Origin: a virus
IMG/VR virus record: IMGVR_UViG_3300036766_000293
Location: 1 to 25,883 of that record
Strand: one strand, 5' to 3'
DNA length: 25,883 nt
In this document: in pieces, positions 1,652 through 24,672 of the stretch
Layout of the letters: every line of letters starts with the position of its first letter
Position numbering within the stretch: position 1 is the first letter of the stretch
The notes under the pieces: model-generated
Told to the model about the DNA's origin: nothing
The model's database searches: none
What the model saw: only the letters and a program-made list of their open reading frames with translations
Position numbers and translations under genes: made by a program

Positions 1652-2497
1652 ATGTGGACCTTTTCGGTAACCAATGCCCAGGCCGCGATTATCGCACCGC
1701 ATAGTGGGGCGTTTGCGGTCGCAGTCAGAGAGAATTCCGCCACGCCCACGGCTGTCTTCACCGCTTGGTTTGGTCCGAATCCTCCAGCCGCGGGGGCGGT
1801 CGGAGCCATCTTCGCAGCCGGTCAGACCGTCGTTTTCTACGCACCCAAGGATTCCCCCTTTCTCGCGGGCCAGGTCGTCGGCTACATCCAGTCGAGCGGC
1901 GCCGGACCCTATACTTTCGTGGCGCTCGAAAGCCCCACGCAGGGAGCGTTCACATCGGGTGGGGATCTCGCTGGCACTACCACTTCGCAAACCGTCGTAG
2001 GACTCGAAAATGTGCCGCTGGACGCAGTTACCGTGGGCGCACCCGCTGACGGTGATCTAGTTGTTTACAATGGTGCTACGGGCAAGTATATCGCGGCGCA
2101 TGGGAAGGCCGTCGTTTCCGTAACGGCGGCGGAACTGAAAGACTTGGTTGCGCATCCGAAGCAGCTTGTGGCCGCGCCTACCGCTGGCAAGATCATCATT
2201 CCTGTCCGGTCGTTCATTCAATATAAAGCAGGGGCCACTCCTTACACTCTTGCCGTTGGCACGCCCTGTTTGTATATCAGTTGGGCGGCGGCGGTCATGG
2301 TTGGGGATTACATCCTCCAGGCGGACTTCCTCAATCAAGCGGCGAATAGAATGGGGTCGGTGAGTGCGAATGGTGGTGGGGCGGCACAGACGGCGGGCGA
2401 TGGTACGGCTCTGGTTCTTGGTTCTGACAGTGATCCAACCCTGGGTGACGGCACCCTGGTTGTGACGGTCTGGTACAGACTTGCGGACCTCTATTGA
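1652..2497 (+). CDS. Phage fibre-like structural protein
   Basis: A 281-residue protein preceded by GAGGTGG about 4 bases before the ATG. Residues 1-95 form a beta-rich head. A typical phage-fibre linker follows, in which GDLAGTTTSQTVVGL leads to GAPADGDLVVYNGATGKYIA; this pattern is common in tail and head fibres. The C-terminal third starts VVSVTAAELKDLVAHPKQLVA, continues through GKIIIPVRSFIQYKAGATPYT and ends in a valine-rich YRLADLY. It reads like a compact beta-sandwich tip domain seen repeatedly in phage virion proteins. It follows an intrinsic terminator and is coupled to a short gene 8 bases downstream. The receptor or attachment site is unknown. An appendage role is inferred from motifs and neighbours. 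Confidence 0.6.
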   Translation: MWTFSVTNAQAAIIAPHSGAFAVAVRENSATPTAVFTAWFGPNPPAAGAVGAIFAAGQTVVFYAPKDSPFLAGQVVGYIQSSGAGPYTFVALESPTQGAFTSGGDLAGTTTSQTVVGLENVPLDAVTVGAPADGDLVVYNGATGKYIAAHGKAVVSVTAAELKDLVAHPKQLVAAPTAGKIIIPVRSFIQYKAGATPYTLAVGTPCLYISWAAAVMVGDYILQADFLNQAANRMGSVSANGGGAAQTAGDGTALVLGSDSDPTLGDGTLVVTVWYRLADLY

Positions 2498-2505
2498 GCC
2501 CGACG

Positions 2506-2673
2506 ATGTTGAACCTACATCAGCGAGTGGCGGAACAGGAACAGCGAATGGTGGCGTTGGAAATATCGCTCCCAGCACCATCCAATCCTCCGCCCGGGAA
2601 TTGCAAGGTAACTAATTTGTACGTGAACGCAGAAGGTAAACTCATCGTCGAATACGACGACACACCAGTTTGA
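2506..2673 (+). CDS. Small coiled-coil protein with shared C-terminal motif
   Basis: A 55-residue gene starting 8 bases after the previous stop, probably translated by coupling because no strong Shine-Dalgarno site is seen. Residues 2-20 (NLHQRVAEQEQRMVALE region) look like a short amphipathic helix or coiled coil, followed by a proline-rich hinge. The C-terminus (NAEGKLIVEYDDTPV) matches the end of the next protein (DATGKLQVTYDDVAV): G-K-L-x-V-x-Y-D-D-x-x-V at the same distance from the stop. That match, together with codon use like its neighbours, is the main reason to accept it as real. It may be a small virion or assembly peptide; the function is not recognised. Confidence 0.6.
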   Translation: MLNLHQRVAEQEQRMVALEISLPAPSNPPPGNCKVTNLYVNAEGKLIVEYDDTPV

Positions 2674-2683
2674 GGGAGGAAAC

Positions 2684-3001
2684 ATGGCGCTTCTACAGAT
2701 GACTCTCGATCCGAACGCAGCGGCCTATAGTGATAACGAAATTGTGGGCAAGATCAATGCGGCGACGGCGCAGATCACGAGGGCCGCAGCGGTAGCGGCG
2801 GCGGCTAGGCCCATTGCGGCCGGCGAGGTGGACAACACCGCTTTAGCCAGTGGCACCGCGAAAGCGAATCTCGACGCGCTGGCCGATACCGTACGCGGCT
2901 ACGTGAAAACCTCTCCGATAAGCACTCAGTTCAAAGTAGTCGCTATCCAACGCGATGCAACGGGGAAGTTGCAAGTAACCTATGACGATGTGGCTGTCTA
3001 A
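2684..3001 (+). CDS. Small virion-region protein of unknown function
   Basis: A 105-residue protein with a strong ribosome site (GAGGGAGGAA, 2672-2681, overlapping the preceding stop). It is alanine-rich and probably helical over residues 15-75, with no cysteines, membrane segments or catalytic signature. The last 15 residues share the GKLxVxYDDxxV motif with the 55-residue protein just upstream, suggesting a common docking or oligomerisation tail. The stop overlaps the next start by one base (TAATG), so it is translationally coupled to the collar-domain gene and may be its partner or chaperone. No family was recognised. Confidence 0.55.
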   Translation: MALLQMTLDPNAAAYSDNEIVGKINAATAQITRAAAVAAAARPIAAGEVDNTALASGTAKANLDALADTVRGYVKTSPISTQFKVVAIQRDATGKLQVTYDDVAV

Positions 3002-3408
3002 TGGCGCTTCAAAGTGAGTATCTTGTTCCTGCCGGCGCGATCTTGATGTGGTCCGGGATCTTAGCCAATATCCCGGCTGGCTGGAATTTGTGCGACGGCA
3101 CGAACGGCACGCCAGATTTGCGGAGCAAGTTTATCAAATCAGTTGCGGCTAGTGAGAACCCCGGAGTTACCGGCGGGAACTTAACCCATACTCATGCTGA
3201 TCATGTGTATACGCCTGTCGGAACTGTCGGCGGGATTATCGCCTCGCTCACGGCGGCGGTCAAGATCGGCACAAGTTCCACTTCGGGAGCAGCCAACACA
3301 CACACGCATCCCGCACCAAGTTTTGCCGGGATACAAGCGAACCTGGCACACGATTCTCCGAACCACGAGCCGCCATATTTTAAACTGGCGTTCATTATGA
3401 AATTGTAG
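3001..3408 (+). CDS. Phage tail-collar-domain fibre protein with HxH motifs
   Basis: A 135-residue protein. Residues 10-46 carry the collar-domain pattern: PAGAILMWSG, then IPAGWNLCDGTNGTPDLRSKFI. The C-terminus EPPYFKLAFIMKL is the usual closing strand of that family. Between them are two histidine clusters, H63-T-H65 with H68 and H101-T-H103. In short tail fibres such as T4 gp12, and in T4 gp37, HxH motifs of this type bind metal ions inside a trimer, so a metal-knitted trimer is likely here. It is close to a minimal collar domain without a long shaft, so it may attach to a partner fibre or act as a small knob. It starts by a one-base overlap with the preceding gene. Confidence 0.75.
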   Translation: MALQSEYLVPAGAILMWSGILANIPAGWNLCDGTNGTPDLRSKFIKSVAASENPGVTGGNLTHTHADHVYTPVGTVGGIIASLTAAVKIGTSSTSGAANTHTHPAPSFAGIQANLAHDSPNHEPPYFKLAFIMKL

Positions 3409-3477
3409 GAGGGCGCCTGACATCACTTCGGTTCTTAGTGCTGTTAAGATTGGATAGATCATCAAAAAGGAGGAGTC

Positions 3478-4245
3478 ATGAATCCCCACATCGCAGGAAG
3501 CGCGAAAGCGGCCATGAACGCGGGCCTCGGCATGGGAGCCGCCTCGATCCTGTCCGCGCGCGCAGAAAACTTCTGGAAGTTTGAGGACTGGCGCCGCCCG
3601 GACCATTGCGCGTGCGAGGGCTGCCGCAACTATCGCCGGCAGGAAGCCTGGGTCTTGGCGCAGCTCGGATGGGCCCACGCACCCGATGGCACGCAGAGCG
3701 CCGTCGAACAACTCTTGCTCAATCAGACCTGGCTCGATCTACCCGCAGAACTGGCCGTCCTGCCGGTCAAGTGCGAACACCTCGATCTCGCCTGGAAAGA
3801 AGAAGTCCCGAACCTGGTGGTGACCGAAGGCAAGGATGACCTGCTGACGAATTACTTGAAGGGCATCGGCTACACGGCCGCCTTCTACGTGGGTCTCATC
3901 GACAATGCGGGCTGGACGGCCTATGCCGCAGGCGACACGGCCAGCAAGATCACGCTCGCCGCCAACCCGCCGACCACGAACGGTTGGCAAGAAGGCGAGC
4001 CCTACTCGAACGCTACGCGCGTGGCTTGGGTGGGAGGTACGGCGGCAGCGGGGTCGATTGATAACTCCCTGTCACCTGCGGCCTTTCTGATCAATGCCAC
4101 TCTGACCGTCCGAGGCGGCTTCCTGGATACGGCCAGCGGGAAACACGCGACGACAGGTGTGCTTTATGGTGAGGCGGACTTCGGGACGGCGCGGGCGGTT
4201 CTGACGGGTGATACCCTGAACTGTACGGTGACCTGTACCGTATAG
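3478..4245 (+). CDS. Phage structural protein with C-terminal beta domain
   Basis: A 255-residue protein with a strong ribosome site (AAGGAGGAG, 3467-3475). Residues 1-105 are helical and basic, with a cysteine cluster (HCACEGCRNYRR, about 43-54) that could bind a metal, though no full zinc motif is evident. From about residue 112 (NLVVTEGKDDLLTNYLKG) begins a domain seen in many phage genomes near structural genes. It runs through YVGLIDNAGWTAYAAGDTA, GWQEGEPYSNATRVAW, GSIDNS and a final strand (GDTLNCTVTCTV), and is probably a beta-sandwich virion decoration or fibre module. The helical N-terminal part may be an added anchoring domain. A homing-endonuclease gene follows directly after the stop. 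No enzyme activity is predicted. Confidence 0.6.
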   Translation: MNPHIAGSAKAAMNAGLGMGAASILSARAENFWKFEDWRRPDHCACEGCRNYRRQEAWVLAQLGWAHAPDGTQSAVEQLLLNQTWLDLPAELAVLPVKCEHLDLAWKEEVPNLVVTEGKDDLLTNYLKGIGYTAAFYVGLIDNAGWTAYAAGDTASKITLAANPPTTNGWQEGEPYSNATRVAWVGGTAAAGSIDNSLSPAAFLINATLTVRGGFLDTASGKHATTGVLYGEADFGTARAVLTGDTLNCTVTCTV

Positions 4246-4269
4246 CAAATTTGCGCAGCGGAGCATCGG

Positions 4270-4881
4270 ATGGACGATATTAACGGTCAACGGTTCGGAA
4301 GGTTGACTGTCGTAGAAAGGGTTGGCTCTAAACTTTGCGGCAGCAAGGAGAAACTTCGTTCACTTTGGCTCTGCCGATGCGACTGTGGCAATCTTACAAG
4401 GCAACCGCGTATCAGTCTAACCACTGGTCATACGATTTCCTGTGGTTGTTTGAGGCGGGATGCCCCAAATAGATTAAAGCATGGACACGCTGGCCATCGG
4501 AGTAAAACGTATCTGGCATGGGTAAATCTGCGAAATCGGTCTTATGGGCGGCAACTCGTTGCTTATGATCCCCGCTGGGATTCTTTTGAGAATTTTCTCG
4601 CTGACATGGGAGAATCTCCCGAAGGATCACAACTGGATCGCATTGATGCCAATGGGTCATATTGCAAAGAAAACTGTCGTTGGACCGATCAGAAAACGAA
4701 CACGCGCAACCGCACAATAACTTTCAAAGTGAACGGCATCCCTTTTGCACAGATCGCCGAAGAAGCCGAAGTTGGATATTACAGGCTTTTTCATCAATTT
4801 GTGACAAAGCACCTGCCTCTTGATATTGCTATCGCCAACGCGAAGGCATTGGAGGCTGGGCGGCAGGCTTGCACGGTGTAG
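4270..4881 (+). CDS. HNH-like homing endonuclease with zinc ribbon
   Basis: A 203-residue protein of a phage mobile-endonuclease family. Residues 5-16 (NGQRFGRLTVVE) open the typical N-terminal domain. C35-x-C37-x-C39 and C58-x-C60 form a probable zinc ribbon (LCRCDCGN, SCGCL). The nuclease core is the HNH-like stretch in which LDRIDANGSY leads to NCRWTDQKTNTRNR, about residues 120-147. A C-terminal FAQIAEEAEVGYYRLFHQF looks like a helix-turn-helix, fitting DNA-site recognition. GC is about 48-50% in sampled lines, lower than the genes around it, and codon use differs, supporting horizontal acquisition. No strong promoter or Shine-Dalgarno site was seen. Its last codons (CTV-stop) echo the end of the structural gene just upstream. 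It is not expected to serve virion assembly. Confidence 0.8.
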   Translation: MDDINGQRFGRLTVVERVGSKLCGSKEKLRSLWLCRCDCGNLTRQPRISLTTGHTISCGCLRRDAPNRLKHGHAGHRSKTYLAWVNLRNRSYGRQLVAYDPRWDSFENFLADMGESPEGSQLDRIDANGSYCKENCRWTDQKTNTRNRTITFKVNGIPFAQIAEEAEVGYYRLFHQFVTKHLPLDIAIANAKALEAGRQACTV

Positions 4882-6386: not shown

Positions 6387-8951
6387 ATGGGCGCAACGTA
6401 TCTCTATATTAACGACAGCGGGGCAAACACCTGGCAGATCGGGGTGGACGATGGCGGCATTCTCAACTCGACCGCTGTGGCTCCACAGACGCCGGCGCTC
6501 CTGCATCTCAAGGACTACGCCACTGGAGCAACCAGCTGGCTCCTGGGTGTAGATACCAGCGGTCGTCTGACGCTTACGAGCGTTGCCCACAATCCCGCTT
6601 ATCCCAATAGCCTTCCTCTGATTTCACCCGGTAGCAATAGTTTTGCCGTGACGGTGACCGCCACGGGGTTGTTTGTGACGATGGTTGCGGTCATCTTCAA
6701 TGAATCCATCTCGCTTGACGGCACAGCCGGTGAGACGGTGACTTTGAAGCTGGTCTTGATAGCAACGCAGGCGCTGGTGGGCATGGCGGCTATAGCCGAA
6801 GCAACACAGATGGACCTCGTTGCGGCAGAATCTTTGGTGGCCTCAGCGGCTTTGGCGGATGCAGCTAAAGTGGAGATACTTGTTGCTGAAACTCTCGTGG
6901 GAAGTGCTGCCCTCACGGAAATACCAGCGAATCAGATTCCTGTGAGCGAGACTTTGGCGGGCGCGGCGGCGCTTAGCGATTCGGCACTCGCAGGTTTGGC
7001 CGCTTCCGAGACTTTGGTGGGCGCGGCCTCCATCACTGAATCCGATAAGATGACCATGCTGGCGTCTACGGCATTAGCCGCGACCGCCCAGGTTAGCGAA
7101 TCTCCCTCCAATTTTATCCCGGTAGCAGAAACACTGGATGGAAGCGCAGGCTTCACGGATTCACCAAATCTTGAAATTCCTGTCAGCGAAACGCTGGCAG
7201 CGGCAGCGGACTTGGCGGTGTCACCCTCGAACTCGATCCCGGTATCGGAAGCTCTGGCTGCGACCGCCGCCCTTACTGAATCGGTACAATCGGACCTACT
7301 CGCTAGCGTGGCTGCTTCGGCCACGGCTGACATCACGGAAGATGTCACTGCGGAAATGCCGGCATCGGTAGTCGCAGCTGGAAGTGCCGGAATAACCGAA
7401 GTTCTGAGTCTATCCATGCCCGTTGCTGAAACGCTTGGCGGATCGGCCCAGGCAACCGCATCTCCGGCCAACGTGATGCCGGTCACTGAACAATTGGATG
7501 TGGTGGCTGACGCCATAGTCACTCCCGGACTTCAAATGGACGCGGCGGCGGCGCTCGCGGCCTCTGCGGATATGACGCAAAGCGCGGTCACCAAACTCGG
7601 CGCGGCAGTCAGTTTGGATGCTACGGCGGACCTCACATTCAGCGAAGTGATGGCGCTCCTGGCGGCCTTGGATTTGCCTGCCGCTGCGGGTATCAGTGCG
7701 GAAGCTGGCCAGATTCACGTGGCCTCTTTGATCCTCGCGGGCGCGGCAGACGAAATACTGGCGGGCGTGCTCGATATGTCCCCGGATGTAACCCTGGCGG
7801 GCGCTCCCGATGTGGTCTTTGTGCCGGCGCTGGTCATGCGCCCGAGCTTGAGTTTGGACGCGGTCGGCACCACCGATGCGCTGGCAGTCACGACGATGCC
7901 GGTAGCCCTCACGCTGCCGGGCGGCGCTTCCATCAATGTGGACGCGGTGCGGCTGATTTCCGCAGCCCTCACGCTCGCAGGCAACGCGGGAATTTCAGTC
8001 GAGACAGCCCTGGTCGTACTCGTCAACTTGACGCTCGCCGTAGCCGCAGACCTGGCGGTTTCGGGGCCGGTCTGGAACGAAAGCGTGGGCCTGCCTGCTT
8101 CGGCGGATATGAGCCTGGGCACGCGCATGGACATGGCCGAATTGGTGGCGCTGGCGGCTCAGGCACAGGTCGTGCAAGTCCCGCGCTTGACCATGAATCC
8201 GGACGCAGACTTGAATGCGGCAGCGGCCGTGGCAGCGCAGGCCGTGATGATTCTGCCCACCTCGATCATACTGCCGGGCGGAGCGACTCTAACGACGGAT
8301 GGCGTGAGGCTCATCCAGGCGGCAATGGCTCTCGCGGCCAGCACCGGGGTGTCCGTGCAAGTGGCGCTCGCGGCGGTAGCGCGGGCGGTGGTGGGCGCAA
8401 ACGCTGACCTCAATCTTTCGAGCTTGATGGACCTGGTGGCCTCGGCCAACCTGACGGGCCAGGCGGCGGTAGCGGCGCGCGGCATCCTGGTCATGGATGC
8501 GGCCACCCTGCTCCAAGCCTTTGCGGATGTGGCAGCAGTTGGAGGCTTCCCCATCCAGGAAGCGATTGGCCTGGTGGCCTCTGGCGACCTGAGCGCCACT
8601 TCCGATCTCATTAAGGCGATCCTTTCCATCGTGGGCGTGGGCTCTGTCAAACCAATGGGCGGGCTTGGGGTGGTGTTGGGAGTGGATGGTGCCGGCAAGG
8701 CCACACCGATAACGGGTGAGGATCTCATTGTCGCCCGGCCTGGACAAGTAGCAGCCAGCCGTGTTTTTGAGAGTGAATCAGTCGAGATTTCTGCCGGAGC
8801 CGGAACGGTCCACGCCACGTCGGGCGCTGGTGGCCCCACGATAGTTCAAGGAACCGGCGCAGTCGGTCCTACGAGCGGGAAGGATGGAGTGGCGGCCGCT
8901 CCGGGCGAAGTCCGCGCCGTCACCGTGGCCGGGAAGGGTCAAGTGAACTAG
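6387..8951 (+). CDS. Giant 20-residue-repeat fibre-like protein
   Basis: An 854-residue protein starting 3 bases after the previous stop, probably by coupling. Residues 1-70 hold two copies of a short beta motif (TWQIGVDDGGILNSTAV and SWLLGVDTSGRLTLTSV) found in phage fibres. Residues 126-744 consist of 31 consecutive repeats of 20 residues (one of 19). The consensus is x-[SA]-x-x-L-x-x-x-A-[DA]-[LI]-x-x-[SA]-x-x-x-x-[MIL]-[PAV]. The fixed period, small residues and alternating hydrophobics suggest a regular beta-solenoid or stacked beta-hairpin shaft, though no structure is known to me for this exact consensus. Residues 755-854 are glycine-rich and may be a tip. There are no cysteines in the repeats, no signal peptide and no membrane segment. 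A long appendage is the likely role; cohesion or host binding is inferred. Confidence 0.6.
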   Translation: MGATYLYINDSGANTWQIGVDDGGILNSTAVAPQTPALLHLKDYATGATSWLLGVDTSGRLTLTSVAHNPAYPNSLPLISPGSNSFAVTVTATGLFVTMVAVIFNESISLDGTAGETVTLKLVLIATQALVGMAAIAEATQMDLVAAESLVASAALADAAKVEILVAETLVGSAALTEIPANQIPVSETLAGAAALSDSALAGLAASETLVGAASITESDKMTMLASTALAATAQVSESPSNFIPVAETLDGSAGFTDSPNLEIPVSETLAAAADLAVSPSNSIPVSEALAATAALTESVQSDLLASVAASATADITEDVTAEMPASVVAAGSAGITEVLSLSMPVAETLGGSAQATASPANVMPVTEQLDVVADAIVTPGLQMDAAAALAASADMTQSAVTKLGAAVSLDATADLTFSEVMALLAALDLPAAAGISAEAGQIHVASLILAGAADEILAGVLDMSPDVTLAGAPDVVFVPALVMRPSLSLDAVGTTDALAVTTMPVALTLPGGASINVDAVRLISAALTLAGNAGISVETALVVLVNLTLAVAADLAVSGPVWNESVGLPASADMSLGTRMDMAELVALAAQAQVVQVPRLTMNPDADLNAAAAVAAQAVMILPTSIILPGGATLTTDGVRLIQAAMALAASTGVSVQVALAAVARAVVGANADLNLSSLMDLVASANLTGQAAVAARGILVMDAATLLQAFADVAAVGGFPIQEAIGLVASGDLSATSDLIKAILSIVGVGSVKPMGGLGVVLGVDGAGKATPITGEDLIVARPGQVAASRVFESESVEISAGAGTVHATSGAGGPTIVQGTGAVGPTSGKDGVAAAPGEVRAVTVAGKGQVN
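6762..8618 (+). repeat. 31 imperfect 60-bp coding repeats
   Basis: Reading the protein in steps of 20 residues aligns 31 units without gaps apart from one missing residue in unit 22. Examples are VAETLVGSAALTEIPANQIP, VSETLAGAAALSDSALAGLA, VAETLDGSAGFTDSPNLEIP and AALTLAGNAGISVETALVVL. Early units (3-9 and 12) are most alike and often begin V-[AS]-E-T-L. Later units diverge (L-x-L-[AP]-G-x-A). The DNA copies differ strongly, so the array is old or held at protein level rather than recently expanded. Confidence 0.85.
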
Positions 8952-8953
8952 CC

Positions 8954-9931
8954 ATGCCTATTATGAGTCTGCCGCGCAAGACGAATTTCACGTTGAGCTG
9001 GACCCTGACGGATAGCCAGGGAAGCCCGATCAATTCAGCCACGGTGACGGCAACGCTTTACTCCGGGCGCGTGAATGGCACGGGGGGTACGGTAGTGACC
9101 CCGATTAACGCCCTGCCACTGGTGTATGTGCCTGGATCGGCCGGTCTTTATTCGGCGCAGGTTCTTGCCACACTCGACCCGGCAGCAGGGCTCACTGATT
9201 TTGTCCTGGTCGTCGAGGCCGTCGTGGCGGGCCTTCTGGTCTACCACATCGAACAGCCGGTCGTGACTGTTTATCCTCCGGCCGTGGACTTGACCACGCT
9301 CGACCGGGTGAAGTCCTGGATCGGCGTTCTCAGCAGCAGTGATGACGCCAACATTTCCGCCTGCATCACGGCGGCGTCGATGTATTGGCTGTGGCGCACG
9401 GGACGCCTACCGGCCAATGGTGATGTGCCTCTGGCCTCTCCTTTGGTGCAGCCGGTGGCTTTCAACGAGTGGTACTCCGGGAATGGATCGGCGCAGATGT
9501 TCTTGCGGCAGACACCCATTCGGACGGTCACAGCCGTGGTTATCAATGGGCAAACCATCGCGCAATCGACCGCCTACGGAATCTCGGGGTGGGTGATTGC
9601 CGATGACGGCAAGAGCTTGCTGCTTCGTCCCGGAGGCAACTCCAGTTCGTTTTCTACGTCGTTCTATGGAATGTGGTCGGCAGGGCCCGCTTTCACGAAG
9701 GGCATCATGAATATCAACGTCCAGTACCAAGCCGGTTACCGGATGACGCCGCCCGATATTGAATTGGCCTGCTGCCAGATGATAGCCGTGAATTATAAAA
9801 GAAGGAGTTGGACAGATCAAAGGTCTCAGGCTATGGCTCAAGGGGCTGGAACCATTAGCTTTAGAGATTGGGAACTTCCTCCCGAGATTGTAAGAGTGAT
9901 GGTTGCGTATACACCGACAGCCGTAACTTAG
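8954..9931 (+). CDS. Head-tail connector (neck) protein with Ig-like N-terminus
   Basis: A 325-residue protein. Residues 1-105 form an immunoglobulin-like beta domain (NFTLSWTLTDSQGSPINSATVTATLY). From residue 113 comes the connector core: LTTLDRVKSWIGVLSSSDDANISACITAAS is the usual first helix pair of gp6-like head-tail adaptors, which bind the portal and close the neck. The C-terminus is WELPPEIVRVMVAYTPTAVT. From about 9790 to the stop the DNA falls to about 45% GC (64 of 141 bases by hand count) and its codons change. A GC-rich version of the last 20 codons lies at 10591-10655, beyond a minus-strand endonuclease gene. The present 3' end therefore appears imported. The endonuclease gene overlaps the last 71 bases on the other strand. 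Confidence 0.75.
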   Translation: MPIMSLPRKTNFTLSWTLTDSQGSPINSATVTATLYSGRVNGTGGTVVTPINALPLVYVPGSAGLYSAQVLATLDPAAGLTDFVLVVEAVVAGLLVYHIEQPVVTVYPPAVDLTTLDRVKSWIGVLSSSDDANISACITAASMYWLWRTGRLPANGDVPLASPLVQPVAFNEWYSGNGSAQMFLRQTPIRTVTAVVINGQTIAQSTAYGISGWVIADDGKSLLLRPGGNSSSFSTSFYGMWSAGPAFTKGIMNINVQYQAGYRMTPPDIELACCQMIAVNYKRRSWTDQRSQAMAQGAGTISFRDWELPPEIVRVMVAYTPTAVT

Positions 9932-10550
9932 CTTTGCGTGTGGCCCAACTCTTTCTGACGATGGAACTTCGATGTTGACCAAATGCTGGATTAGCAGCAC
10001 CGCTTTGCTTCGCAGACATTCGCCGACGTGTTTCCACAGAATGCCTGCGCCCATAGAAGGGATTATCCACTCCCTTGCGGCGGTCAGCAAGTTGCTTCTT
10101 CCACTCTTCGGTATGCGGAATATGGCGTCCGAACATTCCATTGGCTGGCCCGCGCAGTCCCTTGCCAAACATGGGATTCTTGGGGCCAACCAACTTTCCG
10201 CGCATCGCCTTGAGCCATTTCTGGCGGTGCTCTTCCGACCAAGGTGGGCCTCCATCGCCTCCTGGCGTCCGGTTATAGCCAAGCCCGTCCGCAGGCGGGT
10301 GGGAGTGCAAACGGGCGATATGAAAGCGTTCGAGCTGATTAAGTTCCGTTCCGGTTTCGGCTCCGCAAATCTCCGTGATCGTAAATGCTTCCGGCCCGTA
10401 GCGGCGAATAGCTCTCGAAAGAAGCGATTTACTTGCGGGGTTCTTGAAGGCACTGGACAAATGACAGATCCACCGGCGTTTCAATGTGGTGGTCGTCTTC
10501 CCAACGTAAACTTTTCCATTAACGGTGTTGGTGACCAGATAGACGGTCAT
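9861..10550 (-). CDS. GIY-YIG homing endonuclease with NUMOD3 repeats
   Basis: A 229-residue protein on the minus strand. The catalytic domain runs from residue 3: VYLVTN and VYVGKT form the GIY...YIG pair, followed by R25/R26, H30, E74 in QLERFHIARL and N93 in GYNRTPGG, all expected of an active enzyme. Residues 104-215 carry four NUMOD3-like DNA-binding repeats (NPMFGK, NGMFGRHIPHTEEWK, NPFYGRRHSVETRRRMS, NPAFGQHRSS). The start ATG at 10550 is chosen because the domain begins there. No Shine-Dalgarno site is seen, but TTGACC about 40 bases upstream could be a -35 element with a weak -10. Its last 23 codons and stop lie antisense to the end of the connector gene. It is a selfish element that cleaves and invades phage genomes lacking it. 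Confidence 0.9.
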   Translation of the reverse strand: MTVYLVTNTVNGKVYVGKTTTTLKRRWICHLSSAFKNPASKSLLSRAIRRYGPEAFTITEICGAETGTELNQLERFHIARLHSHPPADGLGYNRTPGGDGGPPWSEEHRQKWLKAMRGKLVGPKNPMFGKGLRGPANGMFGRHIPHTEEWKKQLADRRKGVDNPFYGRRHSVETRRRMSAKQSGAANPAFGQHRSSIVRKSWATRKAKLRLSVYTQPSLLQSREEVPNL

Positions 10551-10590
10551 CGCACGAAGGTAACGCAGTACCCATCTCAGGTCAAGACTA

Positions 10591-10655
10591 ATTGGGAACT
10601 GCCCCCGGAGGTCGAGCGGGTCATGGTCGCTTACACGCCGACGGCACTGGCTTAA
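10591..10655 (+). pseudogene. Displaced original 3' end of the connector gene
   Basis: These 65 bases encode WELPPEVERVMVAYTPTALA and a stop. They match the last 20 codons of the connector gene (9867-9931) at 16 of 20 residues and 45 of 65 bases (hand count). Both copies begin with the same ten bases (attgggaact). No similarity is evident upstream of that point in this copy. This copy is about 63% GC, like surrounding phage genes, whereas the functional copy is recoded and lower in GC. There is no start site, so it is a relic. It ends 2 bases before an 18-bp palindrome and 21 bases before the next gene. Confidence 0.85.
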
Positions 10656-10656
10656 T

Positions 10657-10674
10657 TGTTGATTCGAATCAACA
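10657..10674. promoter_or_regulatory. 18-bp perfect palindrome
   Basis: TGTTGATTCGAATCAACA is its own reverse complement with no central spacer. It fills the space between the relic stop (10653-10655) and the ATG of the next gene (10677), where a Shine-Dalgarno site would be expected but none is seen. With no loop it is a poor RNA hairpin and looks more like a site for a dimeric DNA-binding protein or nuclease. Its function is unknown. Confidence 0.5.
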
Positions 10675-10676
10675 TT

Positions 10677-11189
10677 ATGGCGATTCAGCTCAGGTTCGAG
10701 GACAACATCAAGGAAGTGGCAGGGCGGCTCGAACAGCGCACTCCGGCCATCCTGGAAGCCCTGCGCACGCGCATGAACTCCCTCCTGGTGCGCCTGCAAA
10801 GCCAAGTCCAGCTCCGGCACCTGTCAGCGCCATCCGGGTTCAGCGCCACTCAGCTCCACCAGCGCAGCGGGAAGCTCATCAGCTCGATCCGCGTGACGCC
10901 CGCGGAGCAGACTGATACCGGGCTGGAAGGATCGGTCCACGGGGCCGGGGGTCCGGCTTGGTACGGTCGTGTGCATGAGTTCGGGGGGAGCTGGACGGTT
11001 CCGGCGCGTGAGGCGGTTCGACAGCGGTTTTCCAAGACCGGCAAGCTCATTGGGGCCAAGACCTTTGGCGTTAAGGGGGGCACGGTCACGATGCCCGAAC
11101 GCAGCTTCATGCGAGCGAGTCTGGCCGAATTGAAGGATGCGATCATCACGGAGATGCGCGAGGCGGTCAAGACCGGCCTGGGGACGTAG
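10677..11189 (+). CDS. HK97 gp10-like neck or minor tail protein
   Basis: A 170-residue protein. ATG at 10677 is preferred over TTG at 10656, because the latter would place an 18-bp palindrome inside the gene; neither has a Shine-Dalgarno site. Residues 1-60 are helical (LRFEDNIKEVAGRLEQRTPAI). The core has the signature of the HK97 gp10-like family of head-tail joining and tail-completion proteins: SGKLISSIRV, then GPAWYGRVHEFGG, then a C-terminal MPERSFMRASLAELKDAI. Its place between connector and tail terminator matches the standard neck order in siphophages. It probably acts at the head-tail interface during joining. The six 10-bp units follow its stop codon at once. Confidence 0.8.
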   Translation: MAIQLRFEDNIKEVAGRLEQRTPAILEALRTRMNSLLVRLQSQVQLRHLSAPSGFSATQLHQRSGKLISSIRVTPAEQTDTGLEGSVHGAGGPAWYGRVHEFGGSWTVPAREAVRQRFSKTGKLIGAKTFGVKGGTVTMPERSFMRASLAELKDAIITEMREAVKTGLGT

Positions 11190-11249
11190 CGGTAAAGTGC
11201 GGTAATTCACGGAAAAGCGCGGAAAAGCGCGGAAGGTTGCGGTAAGTAT
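11190..11249 (+). repeat. Six 10-bp tandem units filling an intergenic gap
   Basis: Starting at the base after the stop codon and ending one base before the next ATG, the DNA reads as six units of exactly 10 bases: CGGTAAAGTG, CGGTAATTCA, CGGAAAAGCG, CGGAAAAGCG, CGGAAGGTTG, CGGTAAGTAT. The consensus is CGG[TA]A[AG] plus four free bases. A 10-bp step places each CGG on nearly the same face of the helix. No normally spaced Shine-Dalgarno site is present; the best is GGAAGG at 11231-11236, 14 bases before the ATG. Confidence 0.75.
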
Positions 11250-11250
11250 C

Positions 11251-11733
11251 ATGTTCGACCCGGAAGCCATTGAAGTGGCGCTCTTTAACTTATTGCAGAA
11301 CGCGGTCACCGCGCTGCCCTTCAAGACCATCAGCCGTCATGCCAAGATTTGGGGCAATGCTGTGCCTCCCGACCAGCCGGCGCTTTACCTGGTGCCGCTG
11401 GGGGGCCCGACCGTACAGGACCAAGCGTTTGGAGCGCCCAAGTACCACCTCAAGTATGTGGTCTTGATCTATGCGCGCGCCGACGCGGCCCTGAACTCTA
11501 CGGTCATGCCGCAGACGCTGTTGAACAACGCTTGGAAGGCGATTAACAACGCCATGTTGGGAAAGCCCATAGATCCGGTGCAGGCTGCGGCCTGGTTGCC
11601 TCATGGAGAGAAACAGACTTTGGGTGGCCTAGTCGAGAACGCCTGGGTCGACGGCGAGACCACCATGCAGGCGGCCATTCTTGACCAGCAAGGGGCTATT
11701 GAGATCCCGCTCAGCGCACTTACCGGGGTCTGA
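11251..11733 (+). CDS. Tail terminator protein
   Basis: A 160-residue protein, typical in length for the lambda gpU / DUF3168 group, which caps the tail tube and joins it to the head neck. Visible features are an N-terminal helix (FDPEAIEVALFNLLQNAV), the strands around QPALYLVPLGG and YHLKYVVLIYARAD, and a helix (TLLNNAWKAINNAM), all in the order expected for this small alpha/beta fold. It sits between the gp10-like protein and the tail tube gene, the classic place for a terminator. The upstream gap consists of six 10-bp units, so its translation start is unusual. The assignment rests on size, fold pattern and position rather than a diagnostic motif. Confidence 0.7.
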   Translation: MFDPEAIEVALFNLLQNAVTALPFKTISRHAKIWGNAVPPDQPALYLVPLGGPTVQDQAFGAPKYHLKYVVLIYARADAALNSTVMPQTLLNNAWKAINNAMLGKPIDPVQAAAWLPHGEKQTLGGLVENAWVDGETTMQAAILDQQGAIEIPLSALTGV

Positions 11734-11818: not shown

Positions 11819-12559
11819 ATGCTGCAATTTGGAATCGGAGGGATGTACGGCAATCCAATCGGCGGAAACTATGGGTCGCCCACCGGACCACAACGGTTCG
11901 GCACACTCCAAAACATCGATCTGGAAATCAGCCAGAAGCTCGTGTCGCTGTATGGCCAGAACAAATTCCCGGACGATGTGGCGCCCAGCGACATGAAGGT
12001 TTCCGGCAAGGGCGGATTCGCCGCGATCGAGATTGATGTTTACAATGCCCTGTTCTACGCGGACACGATCGCCGCAGGCATCAAAGCGGTTTCGCCGGAT
12101 GAGAGCCACGCCATTGGCTCGACCGTCGTGATCACGCCGCCAAGTTCCGGAGTCTGGTTCTTGGACTTGGGCGTGCGCAACGGCACCACGGGCCGGCCCA
12201 TGATTAAGACCAGCGGCGCCCCCGGTGTCGGCTACTACCAGAACACTGGCACGAGCACCTACACGTTCAACGCGACCGACGTGTCGAGCGGCTTCCCGGT
12301 CCTCATTTCCTACGCCTACACTCTGAGCACGGGCCGGACGCTCACCGTCACGAACCACCTGCAAGGCTATGGGCCTGTCTTCGAGCTGTACCTACTGGAA
12401 CCCTATCAGGGCACGAACGGCGTGCACCTGTACAGCGTCCGCGCTTCGAAGATGTCCAACCCGCTGAAACGTGACAACTACCTCATCAGCGACTTCGAGT
12501 TCGAAGGCTTTGCGAACGCGGCCGGCCAGGTGATGGACTTCTTCCAGATTTCCGCGTAA
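11819..12559 (+). CDS. Major tail tube protein, copy 1
   Basis: A 246-residue protein with an extended purine-rich ribosome site. It starts MLQFGIGGMYGNP, continues with TLQNIDLEISQKLVSLYGQNKFPDDVAPSDMKVSGKG (residues 29-65), then FAAIEIDVYNALFY, and ends LKRDNYLISDFEFEGFANAAGQVMDFFQISA. The size, beta-rich makeup, FFQISA-type tail and place between terminator and chaperone fit a siphovirus tube subunit that stacks as hexameric rings around the tape measure. It is a close paralogue of the next gene, which has an extra domain, and their cores are nearly identical in protein although very different in DNA. It may form the bulk of the tube, with copy 2 as a decorated or minor subunit. Confidence 0.75.
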   Translation: MLQFGIGGMYGNPIGGNYGSPTGPQRFGTLQNIDLEISQKLVSLYGQNKFPDDVAPSDMKVSGKGGFAAIEIDVYNALFYADTIAAGIKAVSPDESHAIGSTVVITPPSSGVWFLDLGVRNGTTGRPMIKTSGAPGVGYYQNTGTSTYTFNATDVSSGFPVLISYAYTLSTGRTLTVTNHLQGYGPVFELYLLEPYQGTNGVHLYSVRASKMSNPLKRDNYLISDFEFEGFANAAGQVMDFFQISA

Positions 12560-12634: not shown

Positions 12635-13624
12635 ATGCTGCAATTTGGTATTGGTGGAATGTACGGCAACCCCACAGGGGGCAACCTGGCAACGCCGAGT
12701 GGTCCGCAGAGATTCGGGACGTTGCAGAACATCGACCTCGAGATCTCGCAGAAGCTCGTCTCCCTCTACGGGCAGAACAAGTTTCCCGATGATGTCGCGC
12801 CTTCGGACATGAAGGTGTCGGGGAAGGGCGGCTTTGCGAACATCGAAATCGACGTGTACAACGCCCTGTTCTATGCCGAGACCATTGCCACGGGCATCAG
12901 TGCCGTGGCTCCGGATGAGCTGCATCCAATCCCGGGAGCCAGCGGCATCGAGGCAGCGGTCATCGGGACGCCTGGCACGCTCTATAGCGTGGGCGACATC
13001 TGCCCGGTGACCAGCGGCGGCGGCACGGGCGGCAGCGTGAAGATTCTGGCTGTCAGTACGGGCGGCATCCCGACCGTCATCCAGATTTACGCTTGCGGCA
13101 CGGGCTACTCGACGACCGCAGGCGCAACCACCAGCGGTGGCACGGGCAGCGGCCTGACCGTGGACATCACAGTTTCCGGCACCTACACCGTCACCGTGGT
13201 TAATGCGGCGACGGGCACAGTGGACTTGGGCGTGCGCTATGCGAGCACTGGCCAGCCCTTCATTAAGGTCACCACGCCCTCAGCGGCAGGCGAGTATGGA
13301 GTCGCTACACCCTATGACGGCATCTACACCTTCGACGTGGCCGATGCTGCGGTGGCGGGTGGCGTACTCATTAGCTACGTCTACACGAACGCTTCCGGGC
13401 GCACACTCACGGTTGCCAACCAACTCCAGGGCTATGGTCCGGTCTTTGAACTCTACTTGCTCGAACCGTACCAGGGCACCAACGGCGTCCATTTGTACGC
13501 AGCACGGGCGTCCAAGATGTCGAACCCCTTGAAGCGCGACAACTACCTGATCTCGGACTTTGAATTCGAGGCATACGCGAACGCCGCGGGGAGCATCCTC
13601 GACTTCTTCCAGATCAGCGCCTAA
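12635..13624 (+). CDS. Tail tube protein, copy 2 with inserted domain
   Basis: A 329-residue paralogue of the preceding tube protein, with ribosome site GGGAGGAA (12624-12631). Residues 23-68 are identical to copy 1. The C-terminal stretches LQGYGPVFELYLLEPYQGTN (running on to GVHLY) and RASKMSNPLKRDNYLISDFE are also identical. Between residues about 102 and 181 (bases 12938-13177) it carries an extra glycine- and threonine-rich beta domain (YSVGDICPVTSGGGTGGSV, then GTGYSTTAGATTSGGTGSG) that copy 1 lacks. The same kind of domain sits in the distal tail protein downstream. It probably projects from the outside of the tube. In SPP1, tube subunits with and without an extra domain are made from one gene by frameshifting; here two genes may serve that purpose. 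Confidence 0.75.
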   Translation: MLQFGIGGMYGNPTGGNLATPSGPQRFGTLQNIDLEISQKLVSLYGQNKFPDDVAPSDMKVSGKGGFANIEIDVYNALFYAETIATGISAVAPDELHPIPGASGIEAAVIGTPGTLYSVGDICPVTSGGGTGGSVKILAVSTGGIPTVIQIYACGTGYSTTAGATTSGGTGSGLTVDITVSGTYTVTVVNAATGTVDLGVRYASTGQPFIKVTTPSAAGEYGVATPYDGIYTFDVADAAVAGGVLISYVYTNASGRTLTVANQLQGYGPVFELYLLEPYQGTNGVHLYAARASKMSNPLKRDNYLISDFEFEAYANAAGSILDFFQISA

Positions 13625-20268: not shown

Positions 20269-20732
20269 AAACGCGAGCTGAGGCTGTGGTTATCGCGCGG
20301 AGTTGGGTTGGCACTCCTTATGTCCTGGGAGGACGAATCAAAGGTGCCGGCGCGGACTGTGCATCGTTGCTCGCGGAGTATCTCATTGAAATTGGCGCGG
20401 CCGAGCGGCAAGCCTTGGGCCTTTACTCACATGATTGGTTCCACCACACAACGGAGGAGCGATACAAGTTCGCGCTTTTGAAACACGCAAAGCAATTGGC
20501 CGAGACCGTCGCTTTTGGCAGGCCGGATGCACAGCCGGGGGACCTGGTGCTGTTCAAAGTGTGCAAGAGCCGCGTCTACAATCACGGCGCGATCGTAACG
20601 AAGTGGCCGATGGGAGTCCATGCCTTCGATGTCCGGGTGCTGGAGGTTAACCTGGTAACTCATGCCGTAACCGGAAACAGTCAGATGGCTATTTTCACGC
20701 CTTGGAGTGACGCCGATGATGGGAAAAGGTAA
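20265..20732 (+). CDS. NlpC/P60 tail peptidase
   Basis: A 155-residue cysteine peptidase. The N-terminus ARSWVGTPYVLGGRIKGAGADCASL carries the nucleophile C32. H107 (YNHGAIV) is the expected base and H119 (VHAFD) the third polar residue, the full NlpC/P60 set. PGDLVLF (91-97) is a further family mark. Phage members of this family, such as gene-transfer-agent gp14 and the C-terminal part of lambda gpK, cut peptide bonds in peptidoglycan during DNA entry and belong to the tail tip. There is no signal peptide, in keeping with a virion enzyme. It overlaps the genes on both sides, so expression is coupled with the hub proteins. Confidence 0.9.
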   Translation: MKTRAEAVVIARSWVGTPYVLGGRIKGAGADCASLLAEYLIEIGAAERQALGLYSHDWFHHTTEERYKFALLKHAKQLAETVAFGRPDAQPGDLVLFKVCKSRVYNHGAIVTKWPMGVHAFDVRVLEVNLVTHAVTGNSQMAIFTPWSDADDGKR

Positions 20733-23700
20733 GAACCAAAGCGCCACGAAACCCACGGCGCTGGGAACGCTTCTGCAAGCCTCGACCTATGGCATGACCA
20801 TTCCATCCATCATTGGAATGACGCGCTCCCCTCTGCTCGCTATTTGGGCCAACGATCTGCGCCAAGTTGGGGGCAGTGGCAAAAAAGGCAACAAAGGCAA
20901 AAAGGGGGGACCGCCTACCTACGTTGAAAGCATTGACTTCCTGCTGGGCCACGCGCCGCTGCGGGCCGTTTTGCAGATGTGGTCGAACAGCACGAAGTAC
21001 CCAATGGACTTCGCCTCGCAGTTATTCGATCCTCCCTATGCGTGGACGTTCACGGTGACCGATCCTAATTTCTACGCGGTTATCGCGGTCACGGCGATGA
21101 TTCCCTACAATCTGGTTTCGCCGGTGGAGTATGGGGGAAGCCCGATCAGCACAAGCGGCTGGTTTGAAGCGCCGATGTGGAACGTGCTGGAAGCCGGCGC
21201 CAATCCGAGCGACCCGAACGCCTGCAACCTCTGGCCTTTAAGCTACGGGTGGGAACCCGGCTACGGGGCCACCGTCTATATCGAGGGCTTGCGGGCCGCG
21301 TCCATCGGCTCAATCGCTTACAACGGCATCAAGGTTTACTACGCGAAAATCAACTCAACCCTGGGCATGACGCCGCTCGCCAAACTCCGCCTTTCCTTTG
21401 AATCAGAACTTGGGTCTGGCAGTGAATACGCCAGCCATCCCACCGAGCAAATCATCTATCCGTGGTACGCGGGCGCGGGATCTCCGAATATCGACCTGGG
21501 ATCGAGCGGCAGCCTTCCGTCACTGAAAGCGGAAATGCTTGGCAAGTGGTCGCTGCATCCCTCGGGCGATGGCGACTTCGTGGACATGATCGAGGAGATT
21601 GTCAGTTCCGGCTATGGACAGTGCGCCCTGGGAAGCGGCCACGGCGCGAGTCCGATCCAGCGCGGGGCGAACTGCTTTGACTACCCTGGCGTCGTGCAGA
21701 AAAAGTACGTCAGCGTCAATTACTACGGCACGCAGACCATCGCCTATGATATGGCGAACACGGCCGGCAACATCCTGTTGGCGTTCGTCTACACGCCGCG
21801 GGGTGACATTACCGGCGTGACGGATTCCATCAACGGCGCGTGGACGTTGACGGAGCACATCGAACCCTGTCTGGACATCCCAGCCTACGGCACGGGAGCG
21901 GTTGCGGTCTATCGCTTCGTCGGCTGTGCGGCAGGTATGGCCTTGGTGGATTTCACGTTCACGGGCGGCGGTTCTCCCCTTCCCATGAGCTTCGTGATGA
22001 TGTTGGAGATCACCGGTGTCGATACTTTTGATACAAGCTCATCTGCGACGGGGTTGCGCCCGACCGTGTCCGTCACGACGACGAACGATCCGGGTTCCGT
22101 GGCCTTGCTGTATGCGTTTACGGCGCGCTATGCCGAGTATGCTGAGAGCAACCTGGGGCAGCTACCGCAGTGGCCGGTGATTATGAAGACCGGGGCTAAT
22201 TGGGCGGCATGGTACGCAGCGAATTTTGCCCAGCAACGGCGCGTGACGATGCCTGGAACCTACTCGATGCAGTGGCGCGTAGCGTCCTTACATAGTGATG
22301 CGCCCTTGATCGTCGTGGCGTTCAAGGCCACGAATCCGCCTACTTATGCCAAGGCACTGCCCCCCATTCTTGACGTGACGACGAAAGAGTTAACGCGGCG
22401 CCAGTGTTGGGCGGGCGGCCTGTGGGGTTCACTGGCCTTGGACTCCCAACAAGCGGCGCGCGATTGGATCGAGAATTTGTGCGTGGCGGCCAACTGTGCG
22501 GCAGTCTGGTCGGGATTCAAGTTGAAATTGATTCCCCGCAGCGAAGTCTCGGCAGCCGGCAACGGGGCGGTTTACATCTCGCCTACGGCCGCAGGCCCGG
22601 TGGCCAACCTCACCACCGAGAATGGAGATTTCGTCGCGGAGGCTGGCGTGTCACCTATTAACGTCGTACGCACGGCCCGGACGGATATCAAAACCGTTCT
22701 CCAAATGCAGCACATCAACCGGACTTCGAACTACGCGCAGATCACGACTGGCGACCCCGACGCGGCCGGCATCGCTCTCTACGGCGTCCGGAAGGCCGAC
22801 CCCATTACGAACAATGCCATCCAAGATGTCACGGTGGCGCGGGCGATTCTGCGCATCATGACGCGGCGCTACAATTACATCAGTAATGTGGCCTACAAGT
22901 TCAAGCTGAACGCTCGCTGGCAACTCCTGGAACCGATGGACTTGGTGACGGTCACCGACCCTCTGGCCGACATCAATTTGGTCCCAGTCCGGTTAACCAA
23001 AGTCGAGGAAACCGACACACACGAACTGGACTGCGAGGCTGAGCCCTTCAGCTATGGCATCCACGCTCCGCAGAACATCACCGTCACTCAGCCGGTAGCT
23101 TATGCGCCGAACACGGAGATTTCAGCCGGAGACGTGAACGCGCCCGTCATCTTCGAACCGGTAGCCCGGCTGTCCAACAACGTGAACCAGATTTGGTTCG
23201 TGGTCTCATCGCCAGATGCAAACTACGGCGGCTGCCAAGTCTATGTCAGCACAGATGGCGGCACATCCTATAACCTTTTGGGAAGCTGCACGGGCAATGG
23301 CACCACGGGCCTATTGAACGGCTCCTGGGCAGCGCACGCGGATCCGGACACGACCAATGATCTGGCGGTTGACCTTACCGAGTCTCTTGGCACCCTGGCG
23401 GACTACGCCGTAGCCGATGAGGATAACTTCACCTACCCCTGCTACGTAGAAGATGGCGTGACTGCTATCCCTTATGAGCTGATGACTTATGGGCTGCGGA
23501 CCCTGACATCGGCCTACAACTACACACTGCTGGCCACCGGGGGTGGGACGAACCACTTGCGGCGCGCGGTCTTTGGAGCGCCAGGCGCAGCCGGCGTACT
23601 TCATGCCAGCGGCAAGCGGTTTGCCTTCTTGACTGGCGAGGGAATTCTGAAAGTGAATATGGATCCCGATTGGATCGGTAAGACGCTCAAATTCAAGTTT

Positions 23701-24159
23701 TTGTCGATGAACACCTTTGGCGGGGGCGTGCAATCGCTGAGTGACGTGTCACCCTACACTTATGTACCCGTGGGCACGGGGAACACTGGCAACCTCAACT
23801 GGCAGAGTTACGTCCAGACTCCGGGCAGCGCGCTGACCAATCCATCGTCCACGCAGATTTCCATGGCGGCGGTGAGCGTGGCGTTCCCGGCAAACACAGC
23901 CGCCTACCAAGCGCGGAACTTCGCTATCGGCGCGCCGGGTAGTCCCACGATGTACTATGTTTTTGTGGCAGACCCCGGAGCGACTGGTGATGCAGCAGGA
24001 AGCCCGAAGACTTCTTATTGTGAAGCGAGCACGGCGAAGATCGGCGTGGCGGGTTACGTTTTCATTGGAGCAATTCAAGCACTACCAGCCGGTGGCGGCG
24101 TAAACGTGATTCCCGGAGGTTTCCCGCTACCCGCTGGCTTCCTTATCAATGGGTCTTGA
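20716..24159 (+). CDS. Central tail hub / host-specificity protein
   Basis: A 1147-residue protein. ATG 20716 is preferred to GTG 20707, because GGAG at 20704-20707 is then correctly spaced; it overlaps the peptidase gene by 17 bases. The N-terminus ALGTLLQASTYGMTIPSIIG is typical of siphophage tail hubs. Residues about 315-550 are a beta-sandwich insertion (KKYVSVNYYGTQTIAYDMAN, later FVMMLEITGVDTF), a kind often found in surface-binding proteins. After it the hub domain (Phage-tail_3 type) resumes with LTRRQCWAGGLWGSLALDSQ and WQLLEPMDLVTVTDP, a gp27-like ring element. The C-terminus (MYYVFVADPGATGD, then GYVFIGAIQALPAGGG) is a common hub tail. It probably seals the tube and contacts receptors, like gene-transfer-agent gp15 or lambda gpJ. 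Its last 33 bases are overlapped by an antisense endonuclease gene. Confidence 0.8.
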   Translation: MMGKGKNQSATKPTALGTLLQASTYGMTIPSIIGMTRSPLLAIWANDLRQVGGSGKKGNKGKKGGPPTYVESIDFLLGHAPLRAVLQMWSNSTKYPMDFASQLFDPPYAWTFTVTDPNFYAVIAVTAMIPYNLVSPVEYGGSPISTSGWFEAPMWNVLEAGANPSDPNACNLWPLSYGWEPGYGATVYIEGLRAASIGSIAYNGIKVYYAKINSTLGMTPLAKLRLSFESELGSGSEYASHPTEQIIYPWYAGAGSPNIDLGSSGSLPSLKAEMLGKWSLHPSGDGDFVDMIEEIVSSGYGQCALGSGHGASPIQRGANCFDYPGVVQKKYVSVNYYGTQTIAYDMANTAGNILLAFVYTPRGDITGVTDSINGAWTLTEHIEPCLDIPAYGTGAVAVYRFVGCAAGMALVDFTFTGGGSPLPMSFVMMLEITGVDTFDTSSSATGLRPTVSVTTTNDPGSVALLYAFTARYAEYAESNLGQLPQWPVIMKTGANWAAWYAANFAQQRRVTMPGTYSMQWRVASLHSDAPLIVVAFKATNPPTYAKALPPILDVTTKELTRRQCWAGGLWGSLALDSQQAARDWIENLCVAANCAAVWSGFKLKLIPRSEVSAAGNGAVYISPTAAGPVANLTTENGDFVAEAGVSPINVVRTARTDIKTVLQMQHINRTSNYAQITTGDPDAAGIALYGVRKADPITNNAIQDVTVARAILRIMTRRYNYISNVAYKFKLNARWQLLEPMDLVTVTDPLADINLVPVRLTKVEETDTHELDCEAEPFSYGIHAPQNITVTQPVAYAPNTEISAGDVNAPVIFEPVARLSNNVNQIWFVVSSPDANYGGCQVYVSTDGGTSYNLLGSCTGNGTTGLLNGSWAAHADPDTTNDLAVDLTESLGTLADYAVADEDNFTYPCYVEDGVTAIPYELMTYGLRTLTSAYNYTLLATGGGTNHLRRAVFGAPGAAGVLHASGKRFAFLTGEGILKVNMDPDWIGKTLKFKFLSMNTFGGGVQSLSDVSPYTYVPVGTGNTGNLNWQSYVQTPGSALTNPSSTQISMAAVSVAFPANTAAYQARNFAIGAPGSPTMYYVFVADPGATGDAAGSPKTSYCEASTAKIGVAGYVFIGAIQALPAGGGVNVIPGGFPLPAGFLINGS

Positions 24160-24672
24160 AAGATGTTTCCAGCTTCGGCGGCGCAAAATATGCTGTACGC
24201 AACTTCGGCTAAGATTGAAGGTTTTCGCAAGTCTTCGAGAACTCAGGCCATTATCAGAGAGCCTGCGGAGTTCCAAGACTATCTGTTCTGTGATGATCGC
24301 CCGGGGATGGGATTCTCCCCGCGATGGATGAGTGGGGCCAGCGTGCGATTCGCGATGTCGCAGTACCATGTCCCGGCTATTGTCTGCCTGAGTTCCGGCA
24401 TAAAGATGCTGCTTGTTCACACACGGCGGATTATCGCAATGATGGAGAATATCTTTGCCTTCCGGGATCGTGCCGTGCACGAGAAAATAAGCGTATCGGT
24501 GCGCCTTAATGGCTTTCTTGCGATGAAGTTCAAAGATGCCATATCCTCCTTTGTCCGTGCAACCAGTCCATGTCCAGCATGGGCCGAGTTGCGGGCAGTG
24601 TTGGGGAATTGGACCGTTCTTGTTTACTTTTTGCCAGAAGCGGGATTGCGGTGGTTTAGAATGGGATGGCAT
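24127..24672 (-). CDS. HNH homing endonuclease with helix-turn-helix
   Basis: A 181-residue protein on the minus strand with an excellent ribosome site (AAGGAG at 24678-24683, five bases before the ATG). It reads RFWQKVNKNG (11-20), CWTWTG (32-37), GGYGIF, AHRYAYFLVHGTIPEG (57-72) and HHCDNPPCVNKQHLYAGTQA (77-96), the HNH_3 pattern with H77/H78, N86 and H89 as likely metal and catalytic residues. Residues 125-170 (AIITEQIVLELRRLSDNGLS, then SRRLAKTFNLSRSCVQHI) form a helix-turn-helix for site recognition. The last 10 codons and stop lie antisense to the end of the tail hub gene. An extended -10 promoter stands upstream. It looks like a self-contained homing cassette between hub and fibre genes, with GC lower than its neighbours in several sampled lines. 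Confidence 0.9.
   Translation of the reverse strand: MPSHSKPPQSRFWQKVNKNGPIPQHCPQLGPCWTWTGCTDKGGYGIFELHRKKAIKAHRYAYFLVHGTIPEGKDILHHCDNPPCVNKQHLYAGTQADNSRDMVLRHRESHAGPTHPSRGESHPRAIITEQIVLELRRLSDNGLSSRRLAKTFNLSRSCVQHILRRRSWKHLSRPIDKEASG

Follow-up and report, generated by a model that had tools for sequence, protein, structure and literature searches.

Our analysis revealed that the head-tail connector gene of this virus carries a foreign 3′ end, that an end of native style lies stranded beyond a neighbouring endonuclease gene, and that the same layout recurs in other phages. The window analysed is the whole 25,883-nucleotide stretch of the IMG/VR virus record IMGVR_UViG_3300036766_000293. We read the locus as a homing endonuclease cassette, free-standing and equipped with its own replacement for the end of the connector, and put the probability of this at roughly two in three.

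The connector locus and its two gene ends

The features of the locus are as follows.

8954–9790, plus strand: head-tail connector (adaptor) gene, native portion (phrog_442 head-tail adaptor, E 4.7e-20; Pfam Phage_connect_1; GC3 0.72)
9791–9931, plus strand: putative replacement 3′ end of the connector, 46 codons and stop, in foreign low-GC codons (GC3 0.35; left boundary uncertain, 9779–9794)
9861–10550, minus strand: GIY-YIG/NUMOD3 homing endonuclease gene, 229 aa (PF01541, E 1.4e-8; PF07460, E 1.9e-19)
9867–9931, plus strand: inner (functional) copy of the repeat, spanning the final 20 codons and the stop (identical to 10591–10655 at 45/65 bases and 16/20 residues)
10590–10655, plus strand: outer (stranded) copy, most likely the connector's own 3′ end, displaced and abutting the neck gene (GC3 0.76; L085 match; E 7e-7)
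10656–11189, plus strand: tail completion/Neck1 protein gene (phrog_5/26/222; junctions in relatives)

The whole connector ORF extends from 8954 to 9931 (325 aa), and its inner copy already codes the full conserved C-terminus and the stop. A protein search of the record recovered the second copy of this end (E 7e-7). A duplicated connector end had been proposed in a sequence-only reading of this DNA, and all its details were reproduced: 45 of 65 bases and 16 of 20 residues match, both copies open with the same 10 bases (attgggaact), and the copies at 9867–9931 and 10591–10655 are 724 bases apart. The 71 bases said to be common to the connector in sense and the endonuclease in antisense were verified as the overlap of the two ORFs at 9861–9931, within the replacement end.

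Codon usage indicates which end is foreign. The GC3 of the connector is 0.55–0.80 as far as about 9790 and then 0.35 to the stop. A change-point scan placed the boundary of the foreign tract at 9779–9794 with a log-likelihood ratio of 18.6, while the highest segment ratio in the 18 other genes of the window was 10.6. The stranded copy, with a GC3 of 0.76, resembles the rest of the phage. On these values (0.35 against 0.76) the attached end has a foreign style and the stranded one a native style. The low-GC end described earlier is therefore real, but it begins upstream of the repeat. The foreign tract comprises about 46 codons, and a stranded counterpart exists only for the last 20–21 of them. 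Since the native 25 codons 5′ of the repeat have no such counterpart, the exact insertion event is not reconstructed.

Relatives were found in IMG/VR with a tail-tube query, and further ones with a connector alignment; the connector alone, used as query against the viral contigs, gave no relatives. The closest relative, L085, is of a phage type shared with L083, L084 and L102. Its connector is 67–68% identical and has no GIY-YIG gene, and ends in DWELPPEVERVMVAYTLTALA before the stop. The stranded copy (NWELPPEVERVMVAYTPTALA and stop) agrees with L085 in 19/21 residues and 54/66 bases, and the attached end (DWELPPEIVRVMVAYTPTAVT and stop) in 16/21 residues and 44/66 bases, the residues being counted from the printed sequences. 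Where a residue is identical, its codon is also that of L085 in 50/102 cases for the connector body, 9/17 for the stranded copy and 7/34 for the replacement tract (body versus replacement, p 0.005; stranded versus replacement, p 0.03). The comparison of the stranded copy with the inner end only (9/17 versus 3/14) is not significant alone (p 0.14). This test of direction rests on one close relative (67–68%) and a stretch of 21 codons.

The sequence-only reading had predicted that connectors without the endonuclease would match the stranded copy and join the downstream gene directly. The L085 alignment bears out the match to the stranded copy rather than to the working end. The direct junction was found in L086, L095 and most other relatives, where the connector stop abuts the neck gene like the stranded copy in the window, but not in L085, whose connector and neck gene are separated by a small additional gene (about 110 aa, approximately 2939–3289). 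This additional gene indicates that the connector/neck junction takes insertions in more than one lineage. A relative with the low-GC end and no endonuclease, which would have refuted that reading, was not found. No GIY-YIG gene was present at the connector site in any of 16 distinct related connector loci; one of eight relatives' records contained GIY-YIG genes, located elsewhere. Because of the L085 match and the absence of the nuclease at these 16 loci, the stranded copy is most likely the displaced native end of the connector. The earlier suggestion that the old end was left as a relic is thus supported, both by L085 and by the GC3 of 0.76.

The product of the endonuclease gene combines a GIY-YIG catalytic domain with a NUMOD3 DNA-binding module, and has 80 relatives in viral contigs. 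It meets the criteria of a free-standing GIY-YIG gene: domain and binding module, no intron, and a site that is empty in related phages. Its site-specific cutting, immunity, and homing or biased inheritance are inferred. Two further endonuclease genes were seen in the window, an HNH/AP2-like gene at 4270–4881 and an antisense HNH_3 gene at 24127–24672, which overlaps the 3′ end of the gene at 20707–24159 by 33 bases. No duplicated gene end was detectable at either of them, and none was found in eight annotated phage isolates that have related GIY-YIG genes, several of whose GIY-YIG loci are split terL genes.

Repetition of other kinds was also observed in the window. The tandem genes at 11819–12559 and 12635–13624, likely tail-tube paralogues, have near-identical N- and C-terminal ends and different middles, and an 854-aa ORF at 6387–8951 consists of degenerate alanine-rich repeats with a motif like PVSETLAAAAALTES.

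Duplicated gene ends at other phage endonuclease loci

We compared the translated left and right flanks of each phage endonuclease gene on the same strand. The sample contained 248 loci in 199 clusters, and the queries were the GIY-YIG gene of the window, the GIY-YIG-type genes of L048 and L069, and one HNH gene of the window. Most of the endonuclease loci had no duplicated end. About ten loci besides the window had the same layout, eight with duplicated 3′ ends and two with duplicated 5′ ends. Their nucleases are GIY-YIG, HNH or HNH-like, and recJ, dcd, DNA ligase, integrase, head-completion, dnaX and thyX genes are among those interrupted.

L048: DHH/RecJ gene, 3′ end; NVTAQIIVEDFEVVAKEDEIEWIF versus NVTPQILIDDFELEENEDEWIF; the stranded end now forms the C-terminus of the nuclease ORF
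L055: M15 peptidase, 3′ end; RPDGMHFEVAIP versus RPDGMHFELVQP; again with the stranded end fused to the nuclease
L069: unassigned gene (HNH-like by eye), 3′ end; 53 residues
L136: tyrosine integrase, 3′ end; AVENLDL terminates both copies
L178: dCTP deaminase, 3′ end; 35/50 residues
L210: ATP-dependent DNA ligase, 3′ end; 22 residues
L251: head-completion protein, 3′ end; 16/20 residues
L264: head-morphogenesis-like protein (MuF-like, weak similarity), 3′ end; 10/16 residues
L162: dnaX clamp-loader, 5′ end, with a GIY-YIG gene (2292–2459, 2495–3304, 3301–4326); the first 47 codons are stranded upstream
L184: thyX, 5′ end (2332–2460, 2450–3250, 3225–4205); duplication around FPVLDYGF, the stranded N-terminal fragment ending in FPVLDYGFVSLVD

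Every accepted case has the body-attached copy next to the nuclease and the stranded copy beyond it. Antisense nuclease genes occur in the window, L178, L251 and L264; those of the remaining cases run in the direction of the interrupted gene. The closest parallel is L251, where an HNH nuclease gene lies antisense to the head-completion gene and the GC3 falls from 0.84 in the body to 0.45 in the attached end and is 0.90 in the stranded end. This reproduces the codon signature of the window exactly. In the other cases the GC contrast between the copies is weaker or absent. The duplications of L055, L136 and L264 are short and weaker, and are supported mainly by the fact that both copies end at the stop or within two codons of it and stand in the expected order. 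In L162 the full dnaX gene, with a different start, lies downstream, and the break is immediately 5′ of the Walker A codons; comparison of its ends with the streptococcal phages MS1 and Dp-1 favours neither copy decisively. Against the isolate relative PIS 136, the stranded copy of L178 scored 35/47 and the working copy 36/52, which does not decide between them either.

Across eleven cases, the two copies have 182 identical residues and use the same synonymous codon for 72 of them, with 73.6 expected if the codons of the copies were independent. An agreement at chance level means that the attached end is not a recent local duplicate. As far as codons can tell, the attached ends derive from a strongly diverged homologue or are fully recoded. 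The breaks sit in conserved stretches (WELPPE in the window, the DGMH motif of the M15 peptidase, the integrase C-terminus, Walker A and the thyX motif), which is consistent with the preference of homing enzymes for conserved codons.

The layout is enriched at endonuclease genes. A score of at least 60 was reached at 9 of 173 true endonuclease genes and at 3 of 460 pseudo-insertion placements on the same contigs (p 0.0007). Of the three control hits, two fall on second nuclease genes or nuclease-like stretches and the third on a repetitive stretch. Without L243 and L292, which were not accepted as gene ends, the counts are 7/173 and 1/460 (p 0.0006). When left flanks were compared with the right flanks of other loci, two rounds gave three hits, none above 54.

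Several candidates were set aside. In L216 the repeat consists of two HNH paralogues and is no gene end, in L292 two related small genes flank the nuclease and the case is ambiguous, and L181, at a contig edge, was left undecided. The repeat of L243 is sequence upstream of genes and likewise no gene end: a stretch (GTGTTATGGTTTACCTACCAACAC...) is repeated 5′ of two genes (1722–1880 and 2842–3075) and is possibly start-associated. No relic was detectable at L225 or L237, where HNH genes lie by head-completion and MuF-like targets. As a separate observation, an HNH gene is antisense at the end of a head-completion gene in two unrelated phages, at 2351–3309 of L251 and 1869–2760 of L225. It was also noted that the stranded gene end is in frame with the nuclease C-terminus in L048 (3953–4744) and L055 (3989–4843), so that annotation would conceal it inside the nuclease ORF.

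Proposed mechanism and alternative explanations

The proposed cassette would consist of the endonuclease gene back to back with the last 46 or so codons of a connector in a different coding. It would have inserted near the 3′ end of the connector gene, where the incoming end would restore a complete protein and the old last 20 codons would persist as a relic separating the endonuclease from the neck gene. We infer that the nuclease would cut the native connector end of co-infecting relatives, and that repair of the break from the carrier genome, with homology arms provided by the connector body on one side and the relic and neck gene on the other, would copy the nuclease and the replacement end jointly. 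The divergent spelling of that end may protect the carrier from its own enzyme, and may also leave little homology for crossovers that would part the nuclease from the rescue. It is plausible that the recoded end blocks cleavage, but there are no cleavage data, and part of the target site could survive in it since the copies share their first 10 bases. Joint transfer likewise remains an inference.

The main rival, which we consider unlikely, is that an ordinary homing endonuclease truncated the connector and later recombination with a diverged phage supplied a one-off end, without any mobile unit. The replacement tract extends beyond the relic on the left, as expected of a recombination patch, and the duplicated end is missing at most of the screened endonuclease loci. 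In addition, the search of viral contigs for relatives of the nuclease and of the connector gave no second phage with the same nuclease and replacement end, and the mobility of the two as a unit is therefore not shown. However, a truncated connector would probably have been lethal before the patch, the endonuclease ORF extends 71 bases into the replacement end, and the order of inner copy, nuclease and stranded copy recurs about ten times in unrelated genes and at both 3′ and 5′ ends. The data leave both orders possible, an end that came with the nuclease gene or one added by a later patch.

An exchange unrelated to the endonuclease, which would merely sit between the copies of a gene end duplicated or acquired by mosaic exchange, is already disfavoured and has in our judgement only a slight chance. 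The mosaic nature of phage genomes and the matches at 3/460 control placements are in keeping with it, but it does not account for the enrichment at endonuclease genes (9/173), and the randomised synonymous codons exclude a recent local duplicate as the inner copy. We rejected a group I intron, by which splicing would join the connector body to the GC-rich end as last exon, as very improbable. GIY-YIG genes are indeed common in phage introns, e.g. in terL of PH15, 6ec and VD13. However, no ribozyme core was found between the putative exons: positions 8900–11300 gave no Rfam match with E up to 5, and no intron reached the Rfam gathering threshold in the window or nine other loci. Moreover, the nuclease gene is antisense, and the inner copy itself supplies the full conserved C-terminus and stop.

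Beyond the single locus, we suggest only tentatively, at somewhat less than even chances, that phages hold recurrent natural home-and-rescue elements. These would involve several nuclease families that target conserved codons of essential genes, with a differently coded 3′ or 5′ end giving both immunity and nuclease–rescue linkage, and would account for a few per cent of the homing endonuclease loci of phages.

Significance and comparison with known systems

Free-standing homing endonucleases are usually thought to be harmless through sites between genes or in introns or inteins. A nuclease that brings the missing end could enter essential coding sequence, i.e. sites closed to other elements, and would be hard to lose because its deletion risks the end that the gene needs. 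Such elements would move gene ends between diverged phages and create chimeric structural and replication genes, and phage coinfection offers an easy setting in which to test the mechanism. They would also be a natural counterpart of engineered target-rescuing drives. In synthetic home-and-rescue gene drives, the nuclease reportedly hits an essential gene and is accompanied by a functional substitute for the end of that gene; in these drives the substitute end is recoded. The phage element would work in the same way if our inference is right, whereas the drives are engineered CRISPR systems in insects. The comparison is a mechanistic analogy only, and no membership is claimed.

Among phage systems, the Seg and Mob endonucleases of T4-like phages are free-standing GIY-YIG or HNH genes near phage genes that can be cut, and spread by break repair with co-conversion of the flanks (PMC2988022). 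They differ in that they sit between intact genes, usually cutting at a distance, or split genes, as in nrdA of Aeh1 and gene 60 of T4 (same source). A survey of phage nuclease genes (PMC10448857) and the T4 review (PMC2988022) treat free-standing, intron-borne and gene-splitting endonucleases, and the parts of both accessible to us describe no duplicated gene end. In the open-access literature we found no published phage example of an endonuclease with a duplicated end, which is not proof of absence.

Mobile ORFs in fungal mitochondria are much closer. The sequence-only reading had pointed to endonuclease elements with duplicated gene ends (atp6) in these genomes, and this is correct: mobile ORFs in atp6, atp9, cox2 and nad3 of Glomus and in atp6 of Allomyces bring a foreign C-terminal end, and the native end is displaced wholly or partly beyond the endonuclease gene (PMC3630166). 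The two ends of Glomus atp6 share 63.5% of nucleotides and 91% of amino acids, and the native end agrees with that of a relative in 91.2% and 100%, respectively (PMC3630166). Three of the four Glomus elements encode LAGLIDADG enzymes and the atp9 element a GIY-YIG enzyme (PMC3630166). As in these fungi, the phage endonuclease gene lies between a foreign attached end and a displaced native end, and it is the displaced end of the window that resembles an element-free relative, here a single close one. Unlike the fungal elements, which lie downstream of the gene and within its transcript (PMC3630166), the phage nuclease gene is antisense in the window and at three other loci. The window, moreover, is an IMG/VR virus record with phage morphogenesis genes and not an organelle, and HNH types and 5′-end versions (dnaX, thyX) occur only in the phage set. 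On sequence comparison, without RNA data for the phage, the fungal mobile ORFs are the same kind of element in another setting and its closest, direct precedent. This kind of element is thus already known in fungal mitochondria and apparently new for phages.
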